Shown here one piece after another: positions 18,699-28,666 of a stretch of DNA of 28,666 nt; the stretch's first letter is position 1; the number at the start of each line of letters is the position of its first letter. The DNA is from a virus, in IMG/VR virus record IMGVR_UViG_3300025425_000115, positions 1 to 28,666 of that record. The stretch is one strand, 5' to 3'. Below the pieces are notes generated by a model that was not told the origin of the DNA, did not search any database, and saw only the letters and a list, made by a program, of their open reading frames with translations. The position numbers were made by a program, and so were the translations under genes.

Positions 18699-19029
18699 AC
18701 AATACGGAGATATTACTGTTGTTTTGAATCCTATTATCAAAGGAATAAGCGAAGAACTTGAAATAGGTCCAGAGGGTTGTTTGAGTCATCCGGGTCTTAT
18801 ACTTAAAGTAAAACGTCCTATTAGCGTTGTTGTTGAATTTGATACCTTGACAAGTGACTATAAAAATGTTATACATGTAGAGATGAAGTTAGATGACATT
18901 GATGCAAGAGTATTCTTACACGAATACGATCACCTACACGGAATTCAATATATTGATCGAGTAAGTAAACTAAAACTGCAAAGAGCAGAAAAACAAAGAT
19001 TAAAAAGGATTAAAAATGGTAGAACCTAG
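18679..19029 (+). CDS. def: Peptide deformylase, C-terminal part (metal site)
   Basis: The frame holds motif 2 EGCLSHPGL (Cys metal ligand) and motif 3 FLHEYDHLHG (HExxH with catalytic Glu), flanked by ITVVLNPIIKG and KVKRPISVVVEF, as in complete deformylases. A basic tail follows (LQRAEKQRLKRIKNGRT). The nominal ATG at 18679 has no ribosome binding site and lies where the intact enzyme has no start, so independent translation is doubtful. Joined with the upstream frame, it gives one deformylase of about 174 aa, a normal size. It overlaps clpA by 14 bases. Confidence 0.78.
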   Translation: MKTILNKQYGDITVVLNPIIKGISEELEIGPEGCLSHPGLILKVKRPISVVVEFDTLTSDYKNVIHVEMKLDDIDARVFLHEYDHLHGIQYIDRVSKLKLQRAEKQRLKRIKNGRT

Positions 19030-21265
19030 TACGGAACTTCAAGTAGTATTTGATAAAGCAGTTACAGATGCTAAGAAGTTAAAGCACGAATACGTAACAC
19101 TTGAGCATCTACTTTACGCAATGCTATGCGAAGAAAACTTTGAAAATAACATCACTGGTTTTGGGGCCGACCCTGAACTAATGAAGAAGAACCTTGAAAA
19201 CTATCTTAAGATAAAATGCAACGATATTATAACCGAAGAAGAAAAATTCAAGCCAAAAAAGACACAAACAGTTGAGCGTGTACTTAATCGTGCATTTGCA
19301 CAAGTTCTGTTTCAAGGTCGCAGTAAAATCAATACTGTTGATGTGTTTATTAGTATTCTGACTGAAAAGCGTTCTTATGCATACTTTGTTACTCAGCAAG
19401 CCAACATTAACAAAGAGGAATATTCAAATTATCAAAATGCCGATCTCGATGATGTCGACGAGATATCCGAAGAAGCCGAAAACAGCGGCGCGGCAAATAA
19501 AGCACTTCGTGCATTTACAGAAGATCTTAATCACAATGTAAAACTTAAAAAAATTGATCCAGTAATTGGCCGAGCACAAGAAATCGAGCAGTTGGCTCTA
19601 GCTCTTGGTCGCCGTAGCAAATCAAACGTGTTGATGGTAGGCGATCCCGGTGTGGGTAAAACTGCAATTGCCGAGGGTCTTGCATATAAAATTGTAAATG
19701 GCGACGTTCCTAGTTTCTTAAAAGAATACAATGTGTATGCATTGGATATTGGTGCTATGCTTGCAGGATCAAAGTATCGCGGTGATCTTGAAGAACGTTT
19801 TAAACTTGTACTTTCTGCCCTACAGAAAAAAGGCAAGACTATTATGTTTATCGACGAAGCACATATGATCAGTGGTGCCGGCGCGGGCAGCAATGGTTCT
19901 AACGATCTTGCTAATATGCTAAAGCCTGCACTAGCAAAAGGCAACATCAAAGTAGTGGCTAGTACTACATGGGAAGAATATCGTAAATTCTTCGAAAAGG
20001 ATCGTGCGCTGATGCGCCGATTCCAACGTGTAGCAGTTGACGAACCAACTGCCGAAATGACTGTTGAAATTTTACAAGGTATTCGCAAATACTACGAAGA
20101 ATTTCATGCTGTTGAGATTACAGATGAGGCAATTGATGCAGCAGTTAAATTGAGCATCAAGTATCAAGCAGATAAAAAACTGCCAGATAAAGCAATTGAT
20201 CTTATCGATGTTGCATGTAGCCGTTTTAAAGTACGCGACCAGAATGAAAACAAAATTGTTACTGAAGAAAGCATTCAGTACGAACTTGCCAAATTGGTCA
20301 ATATTCCCGAAGAGCAGGTTGCAGAACGTGAAACTGAAAATCTTGCAAATCTTGAGAGAAACCTTAAAGGATCAGTTTATGGCCAAGATGTTGCTATTGA
20401 AACAATTGTTGACAAAATTCTTGTTGCTCAAGCAGGTTTAAAATCCGAAGACAAGCCTATTGGTAGTTTTGTGTTTATGGGTCCAACAGGTACAGGTAAA
20501 ACTGAAACTGCAAAACAACTTGCACATCATCTAGGTGTAAATCTTGTAAGGTTTGACATGAGCGAGTACCAAGAAAAGCACAGTGTTGCTAAGTTTATCG
20601 GTGCACCTCCGGGCTATGTTGGTTTCGAAGACGATGCAGGACAACTTATTGTTAAACTGCAAGAAAACCCCACCTGTGTTTTGTTGCTAGATGAGATTGA
20701 AAAAGCACATCCTGACGTAAGTGCAGTACTGTTGCAACTCATGGACAACGGTAAAGTAACCGGATCCAACGGCAAAGTTGCGGATGCTCGTAATTGTGTG
20801 TTGATTCTTACAACTAACTTAGGTGCCGAGGATGCCGAAAAGAATCAAATTGGTTTTGTTGAAGATATGGCAAAGGAATACGAAGATACAGAGCTGAAAA
20901 AATTCTTTGCTCCCGAATTTCGTAATCGTCTAGATGCTACGATTACATTTGCTAAACTTGGTAAACCAGTGATGATGAAGATTGTGGGTAAGTTCCTTGC
21001 AGAACTGCGAGATCAAGTCAAAGACAAAGGCGTTAGGATCGAAGTCACTGACGAGGCACTAGACTATCTTGTAGAAAAAGGATTTGACCCCAAGATGGGA
21101 GCCCGTCCTCTGCAACGTGTTATTGATAAAGATATCAAGCGTCCGTTATCAAGAGCAATGTTGTTCGGAAATCTCAAAGAAGGTGGCAAGGTTGTCGTAA
21201 ATACTATTAACAACGAAATAGTATTAGAGACTGATCATGACACAATTACAACTACACGAGACTAA
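19016..21265 (+). CDS. clpA: ClpA-type AAA+ unfoldase (749 aa)
   Basis: Full-length double-AAA+ unfoldase, close to E. coli ClpA (758 aa). The N domain (residues 1-~145) starts STELQVVFDKAVTDAKKLKH. D1 has Walker A GDPGVGKT near 209-216 and Walker B MFIDEAH near 280. D2 has Walker A GPTGTGKT near 489-496, pore-type loop GAPPGYVGF, Walker B LLLDEIEKAHP near 556 and C-terminal GARPLQRVID. It lacks the long ClpB coiled-coil middle domain. The QIGF tripeptide loop at residues 612-614 (20849-20857) corresponds to the ClpA IGL/IGF loop that docks on ClpP, so it could feed host ClpP. The ATG follows AAAGGA and overlaps the deformylase end. Confidence 0.9.
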   Translation: MVEPSTELQVVFDKAVTDAKKLKHEYVTLEHLLYAMLCEENFENNITGFGADPELMKKNLENYLKIKCNDIITEEEKFKPKKTQTVERVLNRAFAQVLFQGRSKINTVDVFISILTEKRSYAYFVTQQANINKEEYSNYQNADLDDVDEISEEAENSGAANKALRAFTEDLNHNVKLKKIDPVIGRAQEIEQLALALGRRSKSNVLMVGDPGVGKTAIAEGLAYKIVNGDVPSFLKEYNVYALDIGAMLAGSKYRGDLEERFKLVLSALQKKGKTIMFIDEAHMISGAGAGSNGSNDLANMLKPALAKGNIKVVASTTWEEYRKFFEKDRALMRRFQRVAVDEPTAEMTVEILQGIRKYYEEFHAVEITDEAIDAAVKLSIKYQADKKLPDKAIDLIDVACSRFKVRDQNENKIVTEESIQYELAKLVNIPEEQVAERETENLANLERNLKGSVYGQDVAIETIVDKILVAQAGLKSEDKPIGSFVFMGPTGTGKTETAKQLAHHLGVNLVRFDMSEYQEKHSVAKFIGAPPGYVGFEDDAGQLIVKLQENPTCVLLLDEIEKAHPDVSAVLLQLMDNGKVTGSNGKVADARNCVLILTTNLGAEDAEKNQIGFVEDMAKEYEDTELKKFFAPEFRNRLDATITFAKLGKPVMMKIVGKFLAELRDQVKDKGVRIEVTDEALDYLVEKGFDPKMGARPLQRVIDKDIKRPLSRAMLFGNLKEGGKVVVNTINNEIVLETDHDTITTTRD

Positions 21266-22313: not shown

Positions 22314-22895
22314 ATGGAACATTTTGTAAGAATAATACTAGATGAAAAACAAGAAGTATCGTTCCTGAACGAATCTATTTTTCCTAATCAAAATCTTTTG
22401 GAAACACAAGATGGTCGTCCTGTATTTGAAATTGTATTAGAACGTCAATTAAATGATGACGAAGCAGACGAATATGCAGACCGACTAGCAAACTACATGT
22501 TCGAACAAGGATACAAAGGTTTTGACATCGAAATATCAACTAGCGAGCAGGTCAACGAATTTTTTGATCAAGATAAGATCAAAGATTTAAAAATAGGAAG
22601 CGAATTACCATTCAATGTAGTTGAAGACCTATGTGTATACATGAGACAGGATCCGTCGTTTTATAGAGAAAATTTATATCCAGCGTTATTAGATGTTCAA
22701 GAAGCTGTTAAAAAAGGCGGCAAATACAACAAGAAAAAAATGCTTCCTATTGTAGAAAAGGCAATAGTCGAATACATTAATAAATTTAAAATACAAAAAC
22801 GTCCAACAGAGCTATTACAGGACAGTGAAAAAATGGAATGTATTAGTAAACTACTCAAAGACGAAACCGAAAGTTTACGCAGAGGAGATTACTAA
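22314..22895 (+). CDS. Conserved phage protein (193 aa), function unknown
   Basis: The start is set at ATG 22314 behind TAAGGAAAA; the frame is open to 22242 but that part overlaps the preceding gene. The protein is acidic and helical: EIVLERQLNDDEADEYADRL, FEQGYKGFDIEISTSEQVNE, LCVYMRQDPSFYRENLYPAL, then a basic stretch (KKGGKYNKKK) and a C-terminal helix. No recognised domain. It overlaps by one base (TAATG) the first gene of the cassette with repeated leaders, but its own N-terminus does not carry that leader. Confidence 0.55.
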   Translation: MEHFVRIILDEKQEVSFLNESIFPNQNLLETQDGRPVFEIVLERQLNDDEADEYADRLANYMFEQGYKGFDIEISTSEQVNEFFDQDKIKDLKIGSELPFNVVEDLCVYMRQDPSFYRENLYPALLDVQEAVKKGGKYNKKKMLPIVEKAIVEYINKFKIQKRPTELLQDSEKMECISKLLKDETESLRRGDY

Positions 22896-23656
22896 TGTTA
22901 CTACGAGAGCTGTTTGAAGCAGATGGTAAAATAGCTACAGTAGCATTTGGAAGAATGAACCCCCCGACAATTGGACATAAAAAACTCGCAGATAAAGTTG
23001 CTAGTTTGTCTGGAGATCCTTATATTTTTTTAAGTCAGTCACAAAAGCCCAAGACAGATCCCCTAGATTTTGCTACCAAAGTTAAGTTTGCAAAAGCATT
23101 TTTTCCTAATGTTACTATAGGATCGCCTGATGTAAAAACTATTATTCAAGCACTACAAAAACTTGAATCAATGGGTTATACTGATATTATATATGTTGCT
23201 GGATCAGATCGTATTGAAGATTTTACCAATCTTATCAACAAATACAACGGCAAAGAATATAATTTTAATAATATCAAAGTAGTAAGTGCTGGAGAGCGAG
23301 ACCCAGATGCAGAAGGCGCAGAAGGAATGAGTGCTAGCAAAATGAGAGCGGCAGCAATCAATGGTGATATGCAATCATTTGCCCAGGGCGTTCCAGATTC
23401 TAAGTTAGCACAACAAATGTATGATGCTGTTCGTGCAGGCATGGGCATCAACGAAATAGCAGGAACACTAATCAAAGTTGGTGCCAAAGCCGGCGGTAAA
23501 TTGGCAAAAGGCGCAGCTAAAAAATTAGGTGCTAGAAAGGGTACACAAAAAATAGCTAAAAAAACTGGTCAATATGCAGGCGGTATTGCAGGCGGTGCCG
23601 CAGAATATAAAATTGCTCAAAAAATGAGCAATACAATGACAGACAGAGACGTGTAA
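22895..23656 (+). CDS. Nucleotidyltransferase (cytidylyltransferase/NMNAT-like) with basic tail and capsid-targeting-like leader (253 aa)
   Basis: The leader MLLRELFE|ADG fits an L-x-E prohead-protease site after residue 8. Residues ~12-165 form a nucleotidyltransferase: VAFGRMNPPTIGHKKLADKV has the (T/H)-x-G-H motif at 25-28 and GMSASKMR is the ISTTxxR-like motif near 147. IIYVAGSDRIEDF and VVSAGERDPDAEG fit the same fold. Members make NAD, CDP-choline or related products; the substrate cannot be told. The C-terminal 60 residues are Gly/Ala/Lys-rich (KAGGKLAKGAAKKLGARKGT), suggesting DNA or membrane association. It is followed within one base by the next cassette gene. Confidence 0.8.
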   Translation: MLLRELFEADGKIATVAFGRMNPPTIGHKKLADKVASLSGDPYIFLSQSQKPKTDPLDFATKVKFAKAFFPNVTIGSPDVKTIIQALQKLESMGYTDIIYVAGSDRIEDFTNLINKYNGKEYNFNNIKVVSAGERDPDAEGAEGMSASKMRAAAINGDMQSFAQGVPDSKLAQQMYDAVRAGMGINEIAGTLIKVGAKAGGKLAKGAAKKLGARKGTQKIAKKTGQYAGGIAGGAAEYKIAQKMSNTMTDRDV

Positions 23657-23657
23657 T

Positions 23658-25937
23658 ATGCAAGTTAGAGAAATTATCACCGAAGGATACAAGCTACAGT
23701 TAGAGCGTGACGATGATGTATTAGTATTACATATCAAAGACACAGCCACAGGCAAGCGTACAGAAGTGCGTGGCAAAGCAGGATATGAAACCAACGGATA
23801 TGATTCAAGTGATCCGTTGCATCGTCTGTTGGACACTGTGGGCAAGACTGCTAATATCTCAGAACTGATGAACGGTGAAGTAGTAACTATAAATCCCAAA
23901 CACCCCGATGCCAAACGTGCGTTGGCCGCAACAGATCGTGCTTACAATGAAGCATTTGACACTGCGGTAGACCTAATAGAAAATAATATGTTTGAAGAGC
24001 AAGGACTAGGTCTGACCATATTTGACATCGATGATACACTATTTCGTACAACAGCACAGATCAAAGTTGTAAAGGACGGCAAGGTTGTACGCAGTCTCAA
24101 CAATCAACAATTTAATACATATCAGTTACAACCAGGAGAAAGTTTTGATTTTGGTGAATTTCGAAATGCAGAAAAGTTTAACAGAGAAAGTATTCCTATA
24201 AAACCTATGATTGCTAAACTTAAAGCAATTATAGATAACGCAGGCAATAGCAAAGTTATAATGCTTACTGCAAGAAGTGATTTTGACAATAAAGAACTAT
24301 TTTTAGATACATTTAGACAATATGGCATAGACATGAGTCGTGTACATGTTCATCGTGCAGGAAATCTAGGTATATCGCCAGCTGCAAGCAAGGCTGTTTG
24401 GATACGCAAATATCTTGATACTGGCAAATATGCTAGAGTTAGGTTGTATGATGATGCAATGAGCAACATAAAAATGTTTATTGGATTACAACAAGAATAT
24501 CCTAGTGTAAAGTTTTTTCCATATTTTGTTACACACGAAGGAACTATTAAAACAATACGCGAAGATGGTAGAATATTTAACAATGTTATTGACAACAAGA
24601 ATGGTTGGGGTGAAGTTCCTGATAATCGAGAAGTTGATTACAAAGGTCTGCGAGTTATGATGACTCCGCAAACATTTATAGATTTAGCAGCACCGTTACA
24701 AGAAGAACCTTCAGATAAAATCTTACAACATATTCAAAATGGTGGAAAAATAGCCAGTCCGTTTCTCATAATAGAAATTCCAGCAGAATGGGAAGATGGT
24801 GATTTTTCAATGCCTGCAAGAGTTATTGGGCATGAAGGCAGAAATCGTATGATTGCCGTTGGAAATGTTTTGGGTAACAAGCCAATAGAAGTACACATAT
24901 TCCCTAATAAAGGAATGAGAGCACGACACATAACAGACGACATGAGAAAGATGCTAAACAAGGGACTGGTAAAAGAAAAAAGCAAAAGCATAGTCAAAGG
25001 TCCGTTGTTTTCATTAACCGAATCAATACTAGAGTGGGGAAGAATCGTTAAAGGTGTTAACGCTACTGTTGACGTAGGTCCCAACGAAATTAAAACACAG
25101 GCCGCAAAGTTTGGTAATACTGTGGATCAAGACGGACGTCCACCTGTAATGAGTCGAAAGACAAAAGGCTCTACTACTAATGTGCTGTACAATCTAAGTC
25201 TGGCTGAACGATATACTCCTATGGAAATAGCCTGTATTGAAGGTGGACATGAGCCAAGAGATTTAGAACCATTAAAGGAAGTAGCACCCAAGCAGCCGGG
25301 TAGATTGTTCTCGGCATTAACTGAAGACAACAAACCGCACACGGAAGCATTTGACACTGCGGTAGATTGGGTCGAAGGTCCAGGTGCCAAAGGATCAACA
25401 GTGTATGCTGCTATGGTAGATGACGCATATATAGAAATCACTTATAAGCCTGTTACCAACGGAGTATATATCTCGTTTACACGCGGCGGAGAATTAAAAG
25501 TAACCGGAGGGGGTTCGCAAAATAAAATCTTTGGTGCTGTTATCAATCACATTAAACAATGGGTAGCAAAAAATAAACCAGAACAGATTGTGTTTAGTGC
25601 CTTTAAACCTCGCACAGGTGCGTTTGGAAGTCAGGATACAACTCGCAGTGGACTATATCGCAAAATGGTACAACGCTTTGCTAGTCAGAATGGTTATGCT
25701 TATGATGTAGAAGACACTGGCAACGAAGATACGTTTATACTAACTAGACAAGGTGTAGAAGAAAACTTTGCGGATGGCAAGAAGCCTGGTAGAAAAGGAC
25801 TAGCAAAACGCAGTGGCGTAAATACCAAAGCAAGTGTTAGCAGTCTAAGAAAAACTGCTAAGAATAGTTCAGGTGAGAAACAGCGTATGGCACATTGGTT
25901 GGCTAATATGAAAGCAGGCCGGGCTAAAAAGAAATGA
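23658..25937 (+). CDS. Multidomain HAD-phosphatase protein with capsid-targeting-like leader (759 aa)
   Basis: The leader MQVREIITE|GYK fits an I-x-E cleavage after residue 9. Residues ~117-290 are a HAD phosphatase: motif I DIDDT (123-127), motif II LTAR (203-206), motif III Lys245 in SKAVWIRKYL, motif IV LYDDAMSN (DD at 265-266). This is the set used by phage 3'-phosphatase-type enzymes. Residues ~317-450 form an unknown domain with VDYKGLRVMMTPQTF and the striking VIGHEGRNRMIA (GHEGRNR 391-397). Residues ~459-540 are a paralogue of the gene at 26661. Residues ~575-697 form another domain with IVFSAFKPRTG and SGLYRKMVQRFA. The tail from 705 is basic (PGRKGLAKRSGVNTKAS, then KQRMAHWLANMKAG). 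EAFDTAVD occurs at 98-105 and 563-570, encoded by an exact 23-base repeat. Confidence 0.75.
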   Translation: MQVREIITEGYKLQLERDDDVLVLHIKDTATGKRTEVRGKAGYETNGYDSSDPLHRLLDTVGKTANISELMNGEVVTINPKHPDAKRALAATDRAYNEAFDTAVDLIENNMFEEQGLGLTIFDIDDTLFRTTAQIKVVKDGKVVRSLNNQQFNTYQLQPGESFDFGEFRNAEKFNRESIPIKPMIAKLKAIIDNAGNSKVIMLTARSDFDNKELFLDTFRQYGIDMSRVHVHRAGNLGISPAASKAVWIRKYLDTGKYARVRLYDDAMSNIKMFIGLQQEYPSVKFFPYFVTHEGTIKTIREDGRIFNNVIDNKNGWGEVPDNREVDYKGLRVMMTPQTFIDLAAPLQEEPSDKILQHIQNGGKIASPFLIIEIPAEWEDGDFSMPARVIGHEGRNRMIAVGNVLGNKPIEVHIFPNKGMRARHITDDMRKMLNKGLVKEKSKSIVKGPLFSLTESILEWGRIVKGVNATVDVGPNEIKTQAAKFGNTVDQDGRPPVMSRKTKGSTTNVLYNLSLAERYTPMEIACIEGGHEPRDLEPLKEVAPKQPGRLFSALTEDNKPHTEAFDTAVDWVEGPGAKGSTVYAAMVDDAYIEITYKPVTNGVYISFTRGGELKVTGGGSQNKIFGAVINHIKQWVAKNKPEQIVFSAFKPRTGAFGSQDTTRSGLYRKMVQRFASQNGYAYDVEDTGNEDTFILTRQGVEENFADGKKPGRKGLAKRSGVNTKASVSSLRKTAKNSSGEKQRMAHWLANMKAGRAKKK
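23949..23971 (+). repeat. 23-bp direct repeat, copy 1 (start of HAD cassette)
   Basis: The 23 bases starting GAAGCATTTGACACTGCGG are identical to 25344-25366. They encode EAFDTAVD in the same frame; the copies are 1395 bases (465 codons) apart and flank the HAD and GHEGRNR domains. Confidence 0.85.
25344..25366 (+). repeat. 23-bp direct repeat, copy 2 (end of HAD cassette)
   Basis: Exact second copy of the sequence at 23949-23971, again encoding EAFDTAVD in frame. Recombination between the copies would remove 465 codons and leave an open frame. Confidence 0.85.
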
Positions 25938-26164
25938 AGATATACGAAATCATAAATGAAAACAATAATATAGATCTTATGCAAAAATTAAAAAAGTTAG
26001 CAGGATTTCATCATGTTGAACAAGCTGTAGATGAATTTCGACATGGCCTATCGTATGAACAAAAAGCAAATGGTCTAAATCCAAATGCAACCAAAACTAG
26101 AAGAATAGTATTTGATAACATTGCTAAAAAATGGAATCATTATAGTAGGCTGCTTGATAAATGA
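25934..26164 (+). CDS. Small protein with capsid-targeting-like leader (76 aa)
   Basis: The ATG overlaps the stop of the HAD protein (ATGA). The leader MKIYEIINE|NNN fits an I-x-E cleavage after residue 9. It is followed by MQKLKKLAGFHHVEQAVDEF, whose LKKLAG is repeated at the N-terminus of the next gene, and a basic helical C-terminus (NATKTRRIVFDNIAKKWNHY). No enzymatic motif. It would be a small basic packaged protein, like T4 internal proteins, if the leader reading is right. Confidence 0.6.
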   Translation: MKIYEIINENNNIDLMQKLKKLAGFHHVEQAVDEFRHGLSYEQKANGLNPNATKTRRIVFDNIAKKWNHYSRLLDK

Positions 26165-26373
26165 ACATAGATGAACTTAAAAAACTAGCAGGAGTTAACG
26201 AGTTCAAAGGGTATACAGAATATACACTTGAAAACATCAGTGACGCTGCAAATGCCAATCGTAAAAAAGAACGTGAACAAAACATAGAACCTGGAACAGA
26301 AGAATGGTTTAAACTTTGGTTTAGTTTGCCTGGTATGACTGGAAGCAAAGGTTTTAGAGGACGCAAAAAATGA
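26161..26373 (+). CDS. Small protein of the leader cassette (70 aa)
   Basis: ATGA overlap with the previous gene. The N-terminus MNIDELKKLAGVNEFKGY lacks the usual x-x-E at residue 9 but shares LKKLAG with its neighbour, and VNE could serve as a weaker site. The C-terminal half has EPGTEEWFKLWFSLPGMTG and ends GSKGFRGRKK. I recall the 'GTxEWFxLWFSLP' stretch as recurrent in marine phages, with no function. Next gene again overlaps by four bases. Confidence 0.55.
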   Translation: MNIDELKKLAGVNEFKGYTEYTLENISDAANANRKKEREQNIEPGTEEWFKLWFSLPGMTGSKGFRGRKK

Positions 26374-26660
26374 AAGTAACTGAAATTATAAGTGAAGATT
26401 GGCAAAAGACCAACAAACGAGATAAAACCGATGGTATGAGTAAAAAAGCAGTCAAAGCCTATCGAAGAGAAAATCCAGGCAGCAAACTCAAAACAGCAGT
26501 CACTACCAAGCCCAGCAAGCTTAAAAAAGGCAGTAAAGATGCTGGCCGTCGTACAAGTTATTGCGCTCGTTCCAACGGGCAAAAGAAAATGCACAACATA
26601 GATTGTTCCAAAACTCCAGAAAAAGCAATTTGTAAATCTAGAAAAAGGTGGAACTGCTAA
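26370..26660 (+). CDS. Basic Cys-containing protein with capsid-targeting-like leader (96 aa)
   Basis: The leader MKVTEIISE|DWQ fits I-x-E cleavage after residue 9. The rest is highly basic: KTDGMSKKAVKAYRRENPGS, KKGSKDAGRRTSYCARSNGQ and a C-terminal AICKSRKRWNC. The 'KAVxAYRRENPGSKLKTAVT ... RRxSxCxR ... RWxC' plan is a recurrent phage domain of unknown function, often found at protein C-termini, as I recall. Charge and leader together suggest a DNA-associated packaged protein. A ribosome binding site (GAGG) lies in the previous gene's end. Confidence 0.65.
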   Translation: MKVTEIISEDWQKTNKRDKTDGMSKKAVKAYRRENPGSKLKTAVTTKPSKLKKGSKDAGRRTSYCARSNGQKKMHNIDCSKTPEKAICKSRKRWNC

Positions 26661-26975
26661 ATGAAGTTTGAAGATTTACTCAACGAAGATGGACGTATTG
26701 TAAAAGGCGTCAACACAACTGTGGATGTTGGACCTAATGAGATAAAAATACAAGCAGCAAAATTTGGCAATACTGTAGACAAGGACGGTCGGCCACCTAC
26801 AATGAGCAGTAATTTAAAAGGCAAGAGTACCAATGTACTGTTTAACTTTGATCTAAGAGAAGGCAACGAGCCACGATATACAGCAGCAGAGTGGGCAATT
26901 ATCGAAGGCGGACACAGCTTAGAAGATATACAGCCTCAGAAAAAAGTTAAACTTTTTAACTTCGATAAATACTAA
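26661..26975 (+). CDS. Paralogue of an internal domain of the HAD protein, with leader (104 aa)
   Basis: The leader MKFEDLLNE|DGR fits L-x-E cleavage after residue 9. The body (GRIVKGVNTTVDVGPNEIKI, QAAKFGNTVDKDGRPPTMS, AIIEGGHSLEDIQP) aligns over about 80 residues with residues 461-538 of the 759-aa protein. The two share TVDVGPNEIK, QAAKFGNTVD and DGRPP nearly unchanged. It is thus a free-standing copy of one module. It starts directly after the previous stop. Function of the module is unknown. Confidence 0.7.
   Translation: MKFEDLLNEDGRIVKGVNTTVDVGPNEIKIQAAKFGNTVDKDGRPPTMSSNLKGKSTNVLFNFDLREGNEPRYTAAEWAIIEGGHSLEDIQPQKKVKLFNFDKY
26964..26971 (+). promoter_or_regulatory. Late promoter-like octamer GATAAATA, five bases before a start codon
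   Basis: GATAAATA covers the last codons of the 104-aa gene and ends five bases before the ATG at 26977, exactly the geometry seen at 21930. That ATG also lacks a Shine-Dalgarno. The match could arise by chance from the Asp-Lys-Tyr/stop codons. Confidence 0.4.
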
Positions 26976-26976
26976 C

Positions 26977-27165
26977 ATGCTATTAAGAGAGTTAAAACAG
27001 AGCAACTTTTCTATGTTTGATGCAACCGTACAAGTACGTCATCGCAATTACTCTCAATGGATACCGGTGCAAATAAGTGCCAGAAGTACTCAAGAAGCAA
27101 GACAGATGTTGTTAGCACAGTATGGAAACGATACTAAAGTAACAGGATTAAGGAAATCGAAATGA
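26977..27165 (+). CDS. Small protein of the leader cassette (62 aa)
   Basis: The N-terminus MLLRELKQSNFSMF starts like the nucleotidyltransferase leader (MLLRELFE) but lacks the following Glu, so it may not be cleaved. The remainder is a compact alpha/beta sequence, DATVQVRHRNYSQWIPVQIS and STQEARQMLLAQYGND, ending in a basic GLRKSK. A pattern like this is common in small phage unknowns; no function is assigned. No ribosome binding site is seen; see the octamer at 26964. Overlaps the next gene by ATGA. Confidence 0.55.
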   Translation: MLLRELKQSNFSMFDATVQVRHRNYSQWIPVQISARSTQEARQMLLAQYGNDTKVTGLRKSK

Positions 27166-27614
27166 AGGTTTCTCAAGTAACCGAACAGCGTGTAGACGAG
27201 CTGGCGCCTGTTGTAGCGGCAGCAGTATGGATATTACGTTGGGTGGCAGTTAGAGGTGCTTGGCCCGTTCTTAAATGGATTGTTAAAAAACATAGTGGAA
27301 AACTTTTGGTAGGAGCAAGTGCAACGGCTGCTCTAGATCAGGGCTGGGACTGGGTTATAAGTCAACTGGGAGCAGAGATGGCACAAATGCTAATAGAAAA
27401 TAAATTTACTATTGCAATGGCAGTTGCTTTTATATTGGGTGCTGCTGTATTTAAAAGATTTTTTGAAAAACAAGGAGAAAAACTTGTGAGTTCAAACGAA
27501 AGTGTATTCGAAATTTATAAACAAAAAGCAGGCGATTATGCTCGTCATGGCGGACCGATGCCCAAAAAGAAAAAACGTGGCCCTCATCCGTTGGGTGGAA
27601 AGTTAGTAGGATAA
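27162..27614 (+). CDS. Membrane protein with leader, possibly head-packaged (150 aa)
   Basis: AAGGA precedes the ATG. The leader MKVSQVTE|QRV resembles the cassette leaders (V-x-E). Two hydrophobic stretches follow: LAPVVAAAVWILRWVAVRGA (14-33) and FTIAMAVAFILGAAVF (about 81-96), separated by a charged and amphipathic region (WIVKKHSGKLLVGASATAAL). The C-terminus is very basic (HGGPMPKKKKRGPHPLGG). A membrane-active protein carried in the head would be notable, e.g. for DNA passage or superinfection control, but this is only inference. It could also be an ordinary membrane protein. Confidence 0.6.
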   Translation: MKVSQVTEQRVDELAPVVAAAVWILRWVAVRGAWPVLKWIVKKHSGKLLVGASATAALDQGWDWVISQLGAEMAQMLIENKFTIAMAVAFILGAAVFKRFFEKQGEKLVSSNESVFEIYKQKAGDYARHGGPMPKKKKRGPHPLGGKLVG

Positions 27615-27615
27615 C

Positions 27616-27951
27616 ATGAAGATTAAAGATTTATTAGAAGGTAAGAACGAAGACAGCTGGACCAAAGATGGTGTCGAAATGTGCAGTAAAAAATGCTGCG
27701 GACAACCAGTAACTGAATGTAAGTGCGGACCTAGTTGTAAGCATTGTAGTTGTTACGAAAAAAATAAATCTATGAACGAAATGACAAGTTCAGGATCAGT
27801 AGCAAGCGTTGCAATCCCAATGAGCGGCGTAATAAAACGCAGCAAAAATGGTGCTCCTGAAGCGTTTCAAAAGAAAAACAAAGATGGTACAGTAATGAAT
27901 GCTCTTGACATGCCCAACAATATTATGGGCCATAAAACAAACAAACGATAA
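27616..27951 (+). CDS. Cys-rich metal-binding protein with capsid-targeting-like leader (111 aa)
   Basis: The leader MKIKDLLE|GKN fits L-x-E cleavage after residue 8. Residues ~22-47 hold nine cysteines (MCSKKCCGQPVTECKCG and PSCKHCSCYEK), a metallothionein- or zinc-cluster-like core. The C-terminal half contains MTSSGSVASVAIPMSGVIKR, a short Gly/Ser/Ala-rich motif that I recall from C-terminal parts of other marine phage virion proteins, and a basic end (GHKTNKR). AGGA precedes the ATG. A metal-binding protein is clear; delivery into the host is inferred. Confidence 0.65.
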   Translation: MKIKDLLEGKNEDSWTKDGVEMCSKKCCGQPVTECKCGPSCKHCSCYEKNKSMNEMTSSGSVASVAIPMSGVIKRSKNGAPEAFQKKNKDGTVMNALDMPNNIMGHKTNKR

Positions 27952-27954
27952 ATA
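27947..27954 (+). promoter_or_regulatory. Late promoter-like octamer GATAAATA
   Basis: It overlaps the stop of the Cys-rich gene and lies 27 bases before the ATG at 27982, with TTCGGAGAA between: the standard arrangement of late genes in this window. Confidence 0.6.
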
Positions 27955-27981
27955 TACTTAACAAAGTATTTCGGAGAATAA

Positions 27982-28666
27982 TATGACAATACAAAATCGA
28001 ATCACTGAAAAAAACGCAAAGCCAGACTTCCTAGACATGGACAAGGACGGCGACAAAAAAGAGCCAATGAAAAAAGCTGTTGCGGACAAAAAGAAGTCGC
28101 CTGTTAAAGAGGTTACAGATCAAGAGCGCATAAGTGCAAGAAAAATCCAAAGAGATGCACAAACTACTCGCCACGGTACTGCTCGCAAACCAGGTGAAAG
28201 TATGGCAGCATACCTTGCTCGTGCAGACAGGCTGAAGAAGAAAAATGCCAGTAAATCAGTGACAGAGCGCGACATTGAACCAAACTTCGAAATTAATCCC
28301 AAGCATAAAGAAATTATCATGCTTGGTAGAAAAATGGAAAGTATGTCACAGAATATAACAAGCACAGACGATGCTAGTTTAATGATGGCAAACGCACTAG
28401 GCAGATTAGGTCCTGTGTTGTCTCGTTTTGGAACCGGATACGTTAAAAACATGAATGATGTTGTTAAAGCATCAGCACTTAGTCCGCAAATTGTACAAAT
28501 GCTAATCAAAAAAGCAAAGGCAGAACCAGCTGCTGAAGCTATGGCTGAAGGTTTAGGTGACATGGCACATCTTGCTGAGCAAGATCATGAAGTGCAAATG
28601 GCCCGTGCTGAACTATACAAAATTGCAAAGTATGCTATCAAGTTACACGAACTGCTAAAAGGTGTA
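27982..28666 (+). CDS. Virion/prohead-type protein with leader (3' truncated by window)
   Basis: The ATG follows CGGAGAA behind a late octamer. The leader MTIQNRITE|KNA fits I-x-E cleavage after residue 9. Next comes an acidic Ca-loop-like stretch (DFLDMDKDGDKKEPMKKAV), a basic region (DRLKKKNASKSVTERD) and a long helical part (NPKHKEIIMLGRKMESMSQN, MMANALGRLGPVLSRFG, EVQMARAELYKIAKYAIKLH). The helical, charged composition recalls T4-type prohead core or internal proteins. At least 228 residues are visible and the stop is beyond the window edge. The EF-hand-like loop lacks the final Glu, so calcium binding is doubtful. Confidence 0.65.

Follow-up and report, generated by a model that had tools for sequence, protein, structure and literature searches.

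A candidate capsid-cargo locus with predicted polyproteins in a T4-like aquatic myovirus

Introduction

The internal proteins IPI-III and Alt of phage T4 have unrelated bodies behind a short leader ending in [I/L]-x-E. Their genes form clustered, plastic loci (the T-even ip loci), several encode small basic proteins, and they operate with the gp21/gp22/gp23 head system. Here we analyze a cassette of ten genes in a 28,666-nucleotide stretch of viral DNA (IMG/VR record IMGVR_UViG_3300025425_000115, positions 1 to 28,666; the whole stretch is called the window below). The phage, of which the window represents a fragment, is a T4-like aquatic myovirus without a close isolate. We consider it very likely that the cassette is a T4-type internal-protein (capsid cargo) locus, with leaders serving as capsid targeting sequences (CTS) and fused cargo cut by the prohead protease gp21.

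Other phages also place cargo in the head with an N-terminal packaging signal or propeptide. In SPN3US and phiKZ, the head protease cuts off the propeptide of head cargo and in some cases cleaves at several sites (PMC10052503), and the N-terminal signal of P1 DarB is sufficient for packaging (PMC9024508). Polyvalent proteins (Iyer et al., 2017; PMC5512222) combine domains of disparate activity and are believed to be delivered by injection along with the DNA of a phage or plasmid. Cyanophage virions have been reported to contain enzymes: the putative cytidylyltransferase T4-GC190 was detected in purified S-SM1 virions (Sullivan et al., 2010; PMC3037559), ORF91 of S-SCSM1 is an NMNAT virion protein (PMC9602691), and mass spectrometry (MS) found a cytidylyltransferase, a SAM hydrolase and a kinase in S-CREM2 virions (PMC10665884).

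Results

Cassette genes share an N-terminal leader

A preliminary description, made from the letters of the window, had proposed that the N-termini shared by these genes are a sorting signal. All the open reading frames and leaders it listed are present. The cassette spans positions 22895-28666, and neighboring genes overlap or abut (Table 1; genes are named by their start positions, the first two also as genes 1 and 2). Eight of the 10 cassette genes have the pattern [ILV]-x-E with Glu at residue 6-11, as do 4 of the 37 genes elsewhere in the window (Fisher p = 5.8e-5). Within the cassette bodies, this pattern is found in 8% of equally long (6-residue) windows. P3 of the site is I or L in seven of the ten genes and I, L or V in eight. 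Leaders are 8-14 residues long and in this clade follow M-[KRL]-[ILVF]-x-[ED]-[IL]-. Their codons vary between genes (GAA/GAG, ATT/ATC/ATA, TTA/CTC/CTG), and the conservation is therefore at the protein level. Taken with the profile test described below, the counts bear out that the motif is enriched on the cassette genes but not in the rest of the genome.

Two details were revised. Of the two leaders described as partial, that of gene 26161 is a longer, conserved version, while gene 26977 keeps the front half only (MLLRELKQ) and has no Glu. The bodies are mostly unrelated, as had been stated, with the exception of gene 26661, a homologue of the part of the gene 2 protein (759 aa) that spans residues ~460-540.

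A shared N-terminus might instead be a cytoplasmic signal unrelated to the capsid, such as a translation start context, a degron for the phage ClpA or a membrane anchor. The ClpA gene lies just upstream of the cassette, and MK-rich starts are frequent in AT-rich genomes. We regard this explanation as highly improbable, since the residues are kept while the codons vary, the motif is missing from most other genes, homologues with T4-type leaders occur in virions, and xxE recurs at internal joints, where there is no start context.

Leaders in related phages

Searches of isolates gave no match, either with the window in a near-DNA search or with the 759-aa product of gene 2 in a protein search. 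The relatives used were G002 (170 kb), G003 (187 kb), G004 (158 kb) and the more distant G005 (218 kb), all of which encode a T4-type prohead protease gp21 (PF03420) and major capsid protein (MCP) gp23 (PF07068). These two genes are absent from the window contig, which is a fragment, and were found in the syntenic relatives. In G002-G004, a cytidylyltransferase cassette follows ClpA, the same place as in the window.

A leader profile was trained on the eight leaders of the window only and then applied to the relatives. It ranked cassette genes above the rest in G002 (p = 0.006), G003 (p = 0.008) and G004 (p = 8e-5; Mann-Whitney U tests), with a pooled p of 1.8e-7. When only bodies without a homologue in the window were considered, p was 0.004. 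Bodies of the same kinds stand behind a T4-like leader in G005 and Methylophilales phage Melnitz-3. For example, the G005 cassette encodes a DUF6267 protein that carries a ligase-like KWDG motif and starts MMITFREYLAE/E (slashes mark predicted cuts). Other T4-like leaders were MKTFKQFLEE, MIRFSQYISE and MQSFRRYIIE, and in another group of contigs MRAxEF[IV]xE precedes many different proteins. Thus, the predicted leaders change together, clade by clade. That a leader differs between clades and is common, within a clade, to unrelated proteins points to a shared partner that recognizes it in trans.

The gene at the gp67 (core) position starts MILRELYYFD or MPLLRELFYFD, near the cassette leaders MILRELYE and MLLRELFE. 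This resemblance would suit core or scaffold-assembly proteins, which the leader would place in the prohead core for head assembly, where they would be consumed or retained without a role in the host; T4 IPIII also affects head assembly (PMC9026906). However, enzyme folds whose motifs are intact occur among the bodies, and turnover of gene content and of fusions is fast, even among strain-level relatives, which is odd for an assembly part. A role confined to assembly is therefore unlikely.

In G005, several leader genes, as well as gp21-23, have the T4 late promoter TATAAATA 28-46 nt upstream. Its enrichment per operon in G005 was not significant (p = 0.12), and the clade of the window was not enriched. 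A leader-bearing gene also occurs outside the cassette, beside tail/head genes, in G002 (G002:C1:159861-160487, MNVFQIIAE/D), G003 (G003:C1:67103-67834, MKVNELNE/I) and G004 (G004:C1:19816-20553, MKIRDLIE/K), with TATAAATA upstream in G002 and G004. It is probably another internal protein.

The major capsid protein has a similar site

The T4 gp23 site, SFLTE65/A, aligns with SLLQE/T in G005 and GLLTE/A in S-CREM2. In the clade of the window, the MCP propeptide ends YLAE/TATAGATSAGNIATLN (E41/TATAGATSAGNIA in G003), with the consensus YLxE/xATAGATSAGN. In small cassette proteins of related phages, what comes after the predicted cut is almost the same sequence. One such protein, in L054, reads MKIQDILE/QATAGATSAGNIA, also given as MKIQDILE/QATAGATSAGNIASV, and related phages also have MRIRDIISE/VATAGATSAGSIATV. 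The loci that show this sharing of E/xATAGATSAG[NS]IA between small cassette proteins and the mature N-terminus of the phage's own MCP are G003:C1:56627-57805, L054:19041, L030:5098 and L151:1149. Because A, T, S and G abound in the shared string, low complexity could account for some of the likeness. The preliminary description had proposed a comparison with the capsid-protein sites of the gp21 homologue: gp21 is present in close relatives, and their MCP propeptide site fits the leader rule.

Internal joints follow the same rule

Several cassette genes look like polyproteins with internal xxE joints, a feature that the preliminary description had not seen. A stand-alone leader gene in one phage is an internal module in another, and the junction retains xxE. 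Stand-alone MTRKKINE/GLGD, MKIREITE/MTSSGSVAS (in G004) and MTDKKLAE/RDVDDN correspond to AMAE/GLGD, SMNE/MTSSGSVAS and SVTE/RDIEPN within genes of the window, and MKFEDLLNE/DGRIVKG of gene 26661 corresponds to SILE/WGRIVKG. The basic module xxE/NFADGK.PGRKGLAKR is found on dozens of different proteins.

P1 was Glu in 78 of 114 non-redundant internal joints (68%) versus 9.3% at P4-P12, a signal that may be partly inflated by leftward homology, module starts having been chosen just after Glu. P3 was I, L, V or M in 57 of the 78 Glu joints (73%), against a background of 17%. With the commonest module excluded, 29 of 75 joints fit [ILVM]xE, while random placements in the same proteins gave a mean of 1.5 and a maximum of 8 (5000 draws). 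The P3 preference, which does not share this bias in like manner, and the recurrence over unrelated modules argue against a pure homology artefact at P1. The pattern at these predicted joints is the known T4 gp21 rule. Joints do not retain the MK[IV].. half of the leader, as expected if selection there is on cleavage only.

Joints could also be relics, that is, leaders of neighbors that became fused, with the proteins packaged and left uncut. Adjacent cassette genes overlap or abut, so that a lost stop would join two of them and leave the leader between their bodies. Against fusion by ancestry alone, joints keep P3 and P1 and not the MK[IV].. half, and the sequences upstream of one and the same module are varied yet almost always end in xxE. 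We find uncut relics rather unlikely, though less so than an assembly role, and favor joints that gp21 would cut.

Homologues of cassette proteins in virions

T4-type leaders on cyanophage virion enzymes were found in the present analysis. T4-GC190 of S-SM1 starts MKKFSAFLNE/A and is 45% identical to gene 1 of the window over the domain. S-SCSM1 ORF91 starts MKSFLQFLKE/A and lies within a run of five virion-annotated genes, ORF89-93; ORF92, also a virion protein, and the start of gene 27983 share 47% identity over 64 aa. The S-CREM2 cytidylyltransferase homologue has the leader MKNFSSFLTE.

For S-CREM2, we compared leaders with MS detection using the annotated starts of all 219 genes and trying three leader patterns. 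The tight T4-type leader occurs on six genes, and the products of five of them (the SAM hydrolase, the kinase, the cytidylyltransferase and two hypothetical proteins) were detected by MS. The association was significant over all genes (p = 0.003), for non-structural versus undetected genes (p = 2.4e-4) and at a length of at least 75 aa (p = 0.004), and was weak at a length of at least 150 aa (p = 0.045). With de novo gene calls and looser patterns it was not significant (p = 0.29 and 0.20), because the caller mis-set starts in S-CREM2.

The reading of the leader as a sorting signal, put forward in the preliminary description, thus gains support from four sides: the leader is enriched, gp21 and gp23 are encoded in relatives, the MCP site obeys the same rule, and homologues of two of the ten genes occur in virions.

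Two further virion proteins were noted. The C-terminus of S-SCSM1 ORF93 (L221:36627-36836) ends in the leader-like string KKRTFKEFLEYIE, which suggests that the targeting signal may also act from the C-terminal end. S-CREM2 ORF12 (L214:7704-10313), annotated as a Cas9-like nuclease, has a T4-type leader, LRFASFMAE/A, a few residues past its annotated start; this Cas9-like enzyme may be capsid cargo.

Genes and modules of the cassette

The domain of gene 1 matches Pfam PF01467 (E = 2.4e-5) and phrog_3041 (E = 4e-54), with TIGH and SASKMR motifs present. Its C-terminal Gly/Ala/Lys tail is a separate leader-like gene (MKVNEVV...) in G004. Gene 2 is the most composite, with GYKL, HAD, ParB/Srx-like (weak), DGRIVKG, GNAT-like and basic C-terminal modules in that order. 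The HAD module, which matches the polynucleotide kinase family phrog_415, stands alone in G005 (SFITE/QTRGKGLTIFDIDET; leader MMLSFKSFITE/Q) and in many contigs (MKI[IT]DLLE/). PDB profile searches with the sequences of modules A and B found nothing. The AlphaFold model of module A (pLDDT 69) had PadC as its best PDB match, which was not significant (E = 0.23), and that of module B (pLDDT 73) matched NatD (4u9w; E = 5e-4, TM 0.51). The basic C-terminal module closes many different proteins, and Glu precedes it in 38 of 39 non-redundant internal joints.

Table 1. Features of the cassette and its upstream neighbor in the window
Feature	Coordinates	Strand	Description
ClpA gene	19016-21265		just upstream of the cassette
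Gene 1 (253 aa)	22895..23656	+	leader MLLRELFE/A, then cytidylyltransferase/NMNAT-like domain
Gene 2 (759 aa)	23658..25937	+	multi-module; leader MQVREIITE/G
GYKL module (gene 2)	23685..23942	+	47.8% identity to stand-alone 97-aa leader gene (MIRFSQYISE/A...) in G005
Block absent from L002 (gene 2)	23949..25366	+	bounded by 23-bp repeats 23949-23971 and 25344-25366, encoding EAFDTAVD
HAD-family phosphatase module (gene 2)	24000..24557	+	DIDDT, TAR and DD motifs intact; preceded by internal NMFEE/Q
Module A (gene 2)	24579..25022	+	weakly ParB/sulfiredoxin-like, HEGRNR motif
DGRIVKG module (gene 2)	25035..25277	+	preceded by internal SILE/W; paralogue of gene 26661
Module B (gene 2)	25335..25754	+	GNAT acetyltransferase-like fold
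Basic C-terminal module (gene 2)	25764..25934	+	NFADGKKPGRKGLAKR...; preceded by internal GVEE/N
Gene 25934	25934..26164	+	small protein; leader MKIYEIINE/N
Gene 26161	26161..26373	+	small protein; longer leader MNIDELKKLAGVNE/F; KLAG[VI]xE/F kept in relatives
Gene 26370	26370..26660	+	small basic protein; leader MKVTEIISE/D, DUF6321 (PF19846, E = 2e-10)
Gene 26661	26661..26975	+	leader MKFEDLLNE/D, DGRIVKG module
Gene 26977	26977..27165	+	small protein; half leader MLLREL; homologue MRLRETFKAP in G002
Gene 27162	27162..27614	+	leader MKVSQVTE/Q, second site RVDE/L, then hydrophobic (membrane-type) body
Gene 27616	27616..27951	+	leader MKIKDLLE/G, Cys-rich segment, internal SMNE/MTSSGSVAS module
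Gene 27983	27983..28666	+	cut by contig end; leader MTIQNRITE/K, KPDFLDMDKDG segment

Among the smaller genes, the 25934 protein had no family in Pfam or PHROGs. DUF6321 is elsewhere the C-terminal end of longer proteins, following xxE (C-terminal positions of phrog_727 and phrog_3477). The body of gene 27162 starts after an internal QLDE/A in G002 and L011. Gene 27983 contains internal SVTE/RDIEPNF and AMAE/GLGDMAH modules, each of which is a stand-alone leader gene in relatives; it is complete in the near-identical contig L002 (294 aa), where the cassette stops after this gene. No DNA repeats of at least 30 bp were found in the cassette.

L002, a strain-level relative, lacks 1,395 bp of gene 2 (465 codons, in frame, by blastn; L002 11055-11077), precisely the stretch between the two 23-bp repeats, and is 99.9% identical on both sides of it; this leaves a product of 294 aa rather than 759 aa. 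Window positions 24586-25941 are 99% identical to L082 and L083, whose flanks are only ~77% identical. The block looks like a recent exchange or transfer of modules.

Discussion

A mechanism that would account for these results begins with the first ~8-14 residues of each protein, acting as a CTS that binds the prohead core. Gp21 would remove this leader after [ILV]-x-E. Several genes appear to be fusions of former stand-alone cargo genes, and their internal xxE joints would let gp21, within the head, release several cargo proteins from a single targeted polyprotein. The predicted cargo includes an NMNAT-like nucleotidyltransferase, a HAD phosphatase, a GNAT-like protein, small basic proteins and a membrane protein, joined in relatives by the DUF6267 (KWDG) protein. 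By analogy with the T4 internal proteins and Alt, cargo would accompany the DNA into the host. Relatives give good support for packaging. From the form of the sites we infer that gp21 cleaves them, and from T4 (PMC9026906, PMC12373910) that the cargo is injected and functions in the host.

Several points weigh against this interpretation, besides the half leader of gene 26977 and the possible inflation at P1. The proteomic support comes from homologues of genes 22895 and 27983 in other T4-like phages, not from this phage or its clade. Among the five neighboring S-SCSM1 virion proteins, a canonical leader is found on only one, implying that the leader is not the sole route or that other forms exist. 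Some cytidylyltransferase homologues of the jumbo phages MIJ3 and PHA46 have no leader at all. The authors of the cyanophage studies leave contamination or carry-over open for virion enzymes. Lastly, gene 2 of the window could in part be an assembly chimera.

The locus departs from each described system in some respect. Compared with T4 internal proteins and Alt, the leader of this clade is one or two residues shorter, many of the cargo proteins are enzymes, and modules are fused with internal xxE joints; Pfam and PHROGs gave no family match between cassette proteins and T4 internal proteins. The cyanophage virion enzymes (T4-GC190 cytidylyltransferase/NMNAT, SAM hydrolase, APH/ChoK-like kinase) share with the locus a homologous cytidylyltransferase, presence in virions by MS and a T4-type leader, whereas the accessible portions of the published reports propose no targeting mechanism and do not mention leaders. 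Like polyvalent proteins, gene 2 joins disparate domains (HAD, GNAT-like and others) in one polypeptide. For polyvalent proteins, however, autoproteolysis by a built-in metallopeptidase was proposed, while the joints of the window fit the prohead protease rule, and Pfam and PHROGs searches found neither a metallopeptidase nor an ADP-ribosyltransferase domain in the cassette. SPN3US/phiKZ cargo, which a gp245-type protease cuts, differs in its A-x-E site and long propeptides, where the window has V, L, I or M at P3 and leaders of 8-14 residues; the extra cuts in those phages fall inside long propeptides, while those predicted here part different cargo modules.

The preliminary description had suggested that such a cassette may be undescribed. 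This does not hold for CTS gene clusters (the T-even ip loci) or for single virion enzymes of cyanophages, both of which are already published. What is new is that predicted stand-alone leader genes turn up elsewhere as internal modules with xxE kept at the junction. We lean toward a general view in which part of the payload of T4-like aquatic phages is packaged in the form of capsid-targeted polyproteins, with modules moving freely between stand-alone and fused form and the injected kit edited by recombination.

The leader offers a mechanism for a recurring puzzle, the presence of NMNAT-like and other enzymes in cyanophage virions. With a simple rule, the clade leader plus xxE joints, one could predict from sequence which proteins abundant aquatic myoviruses inject. 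Should the joints be cut, the head-maturation protease would double as a processor of effector polyproteins, a role for which we found no description in the literature searched. That the cargo is an NAD or nucleic-acid end-repair kit is a guess; an injected kit for NAD synthesis or end repair would act before phage gene expression, when defences that deplete NAD or cleave tRNA or DNA strike.
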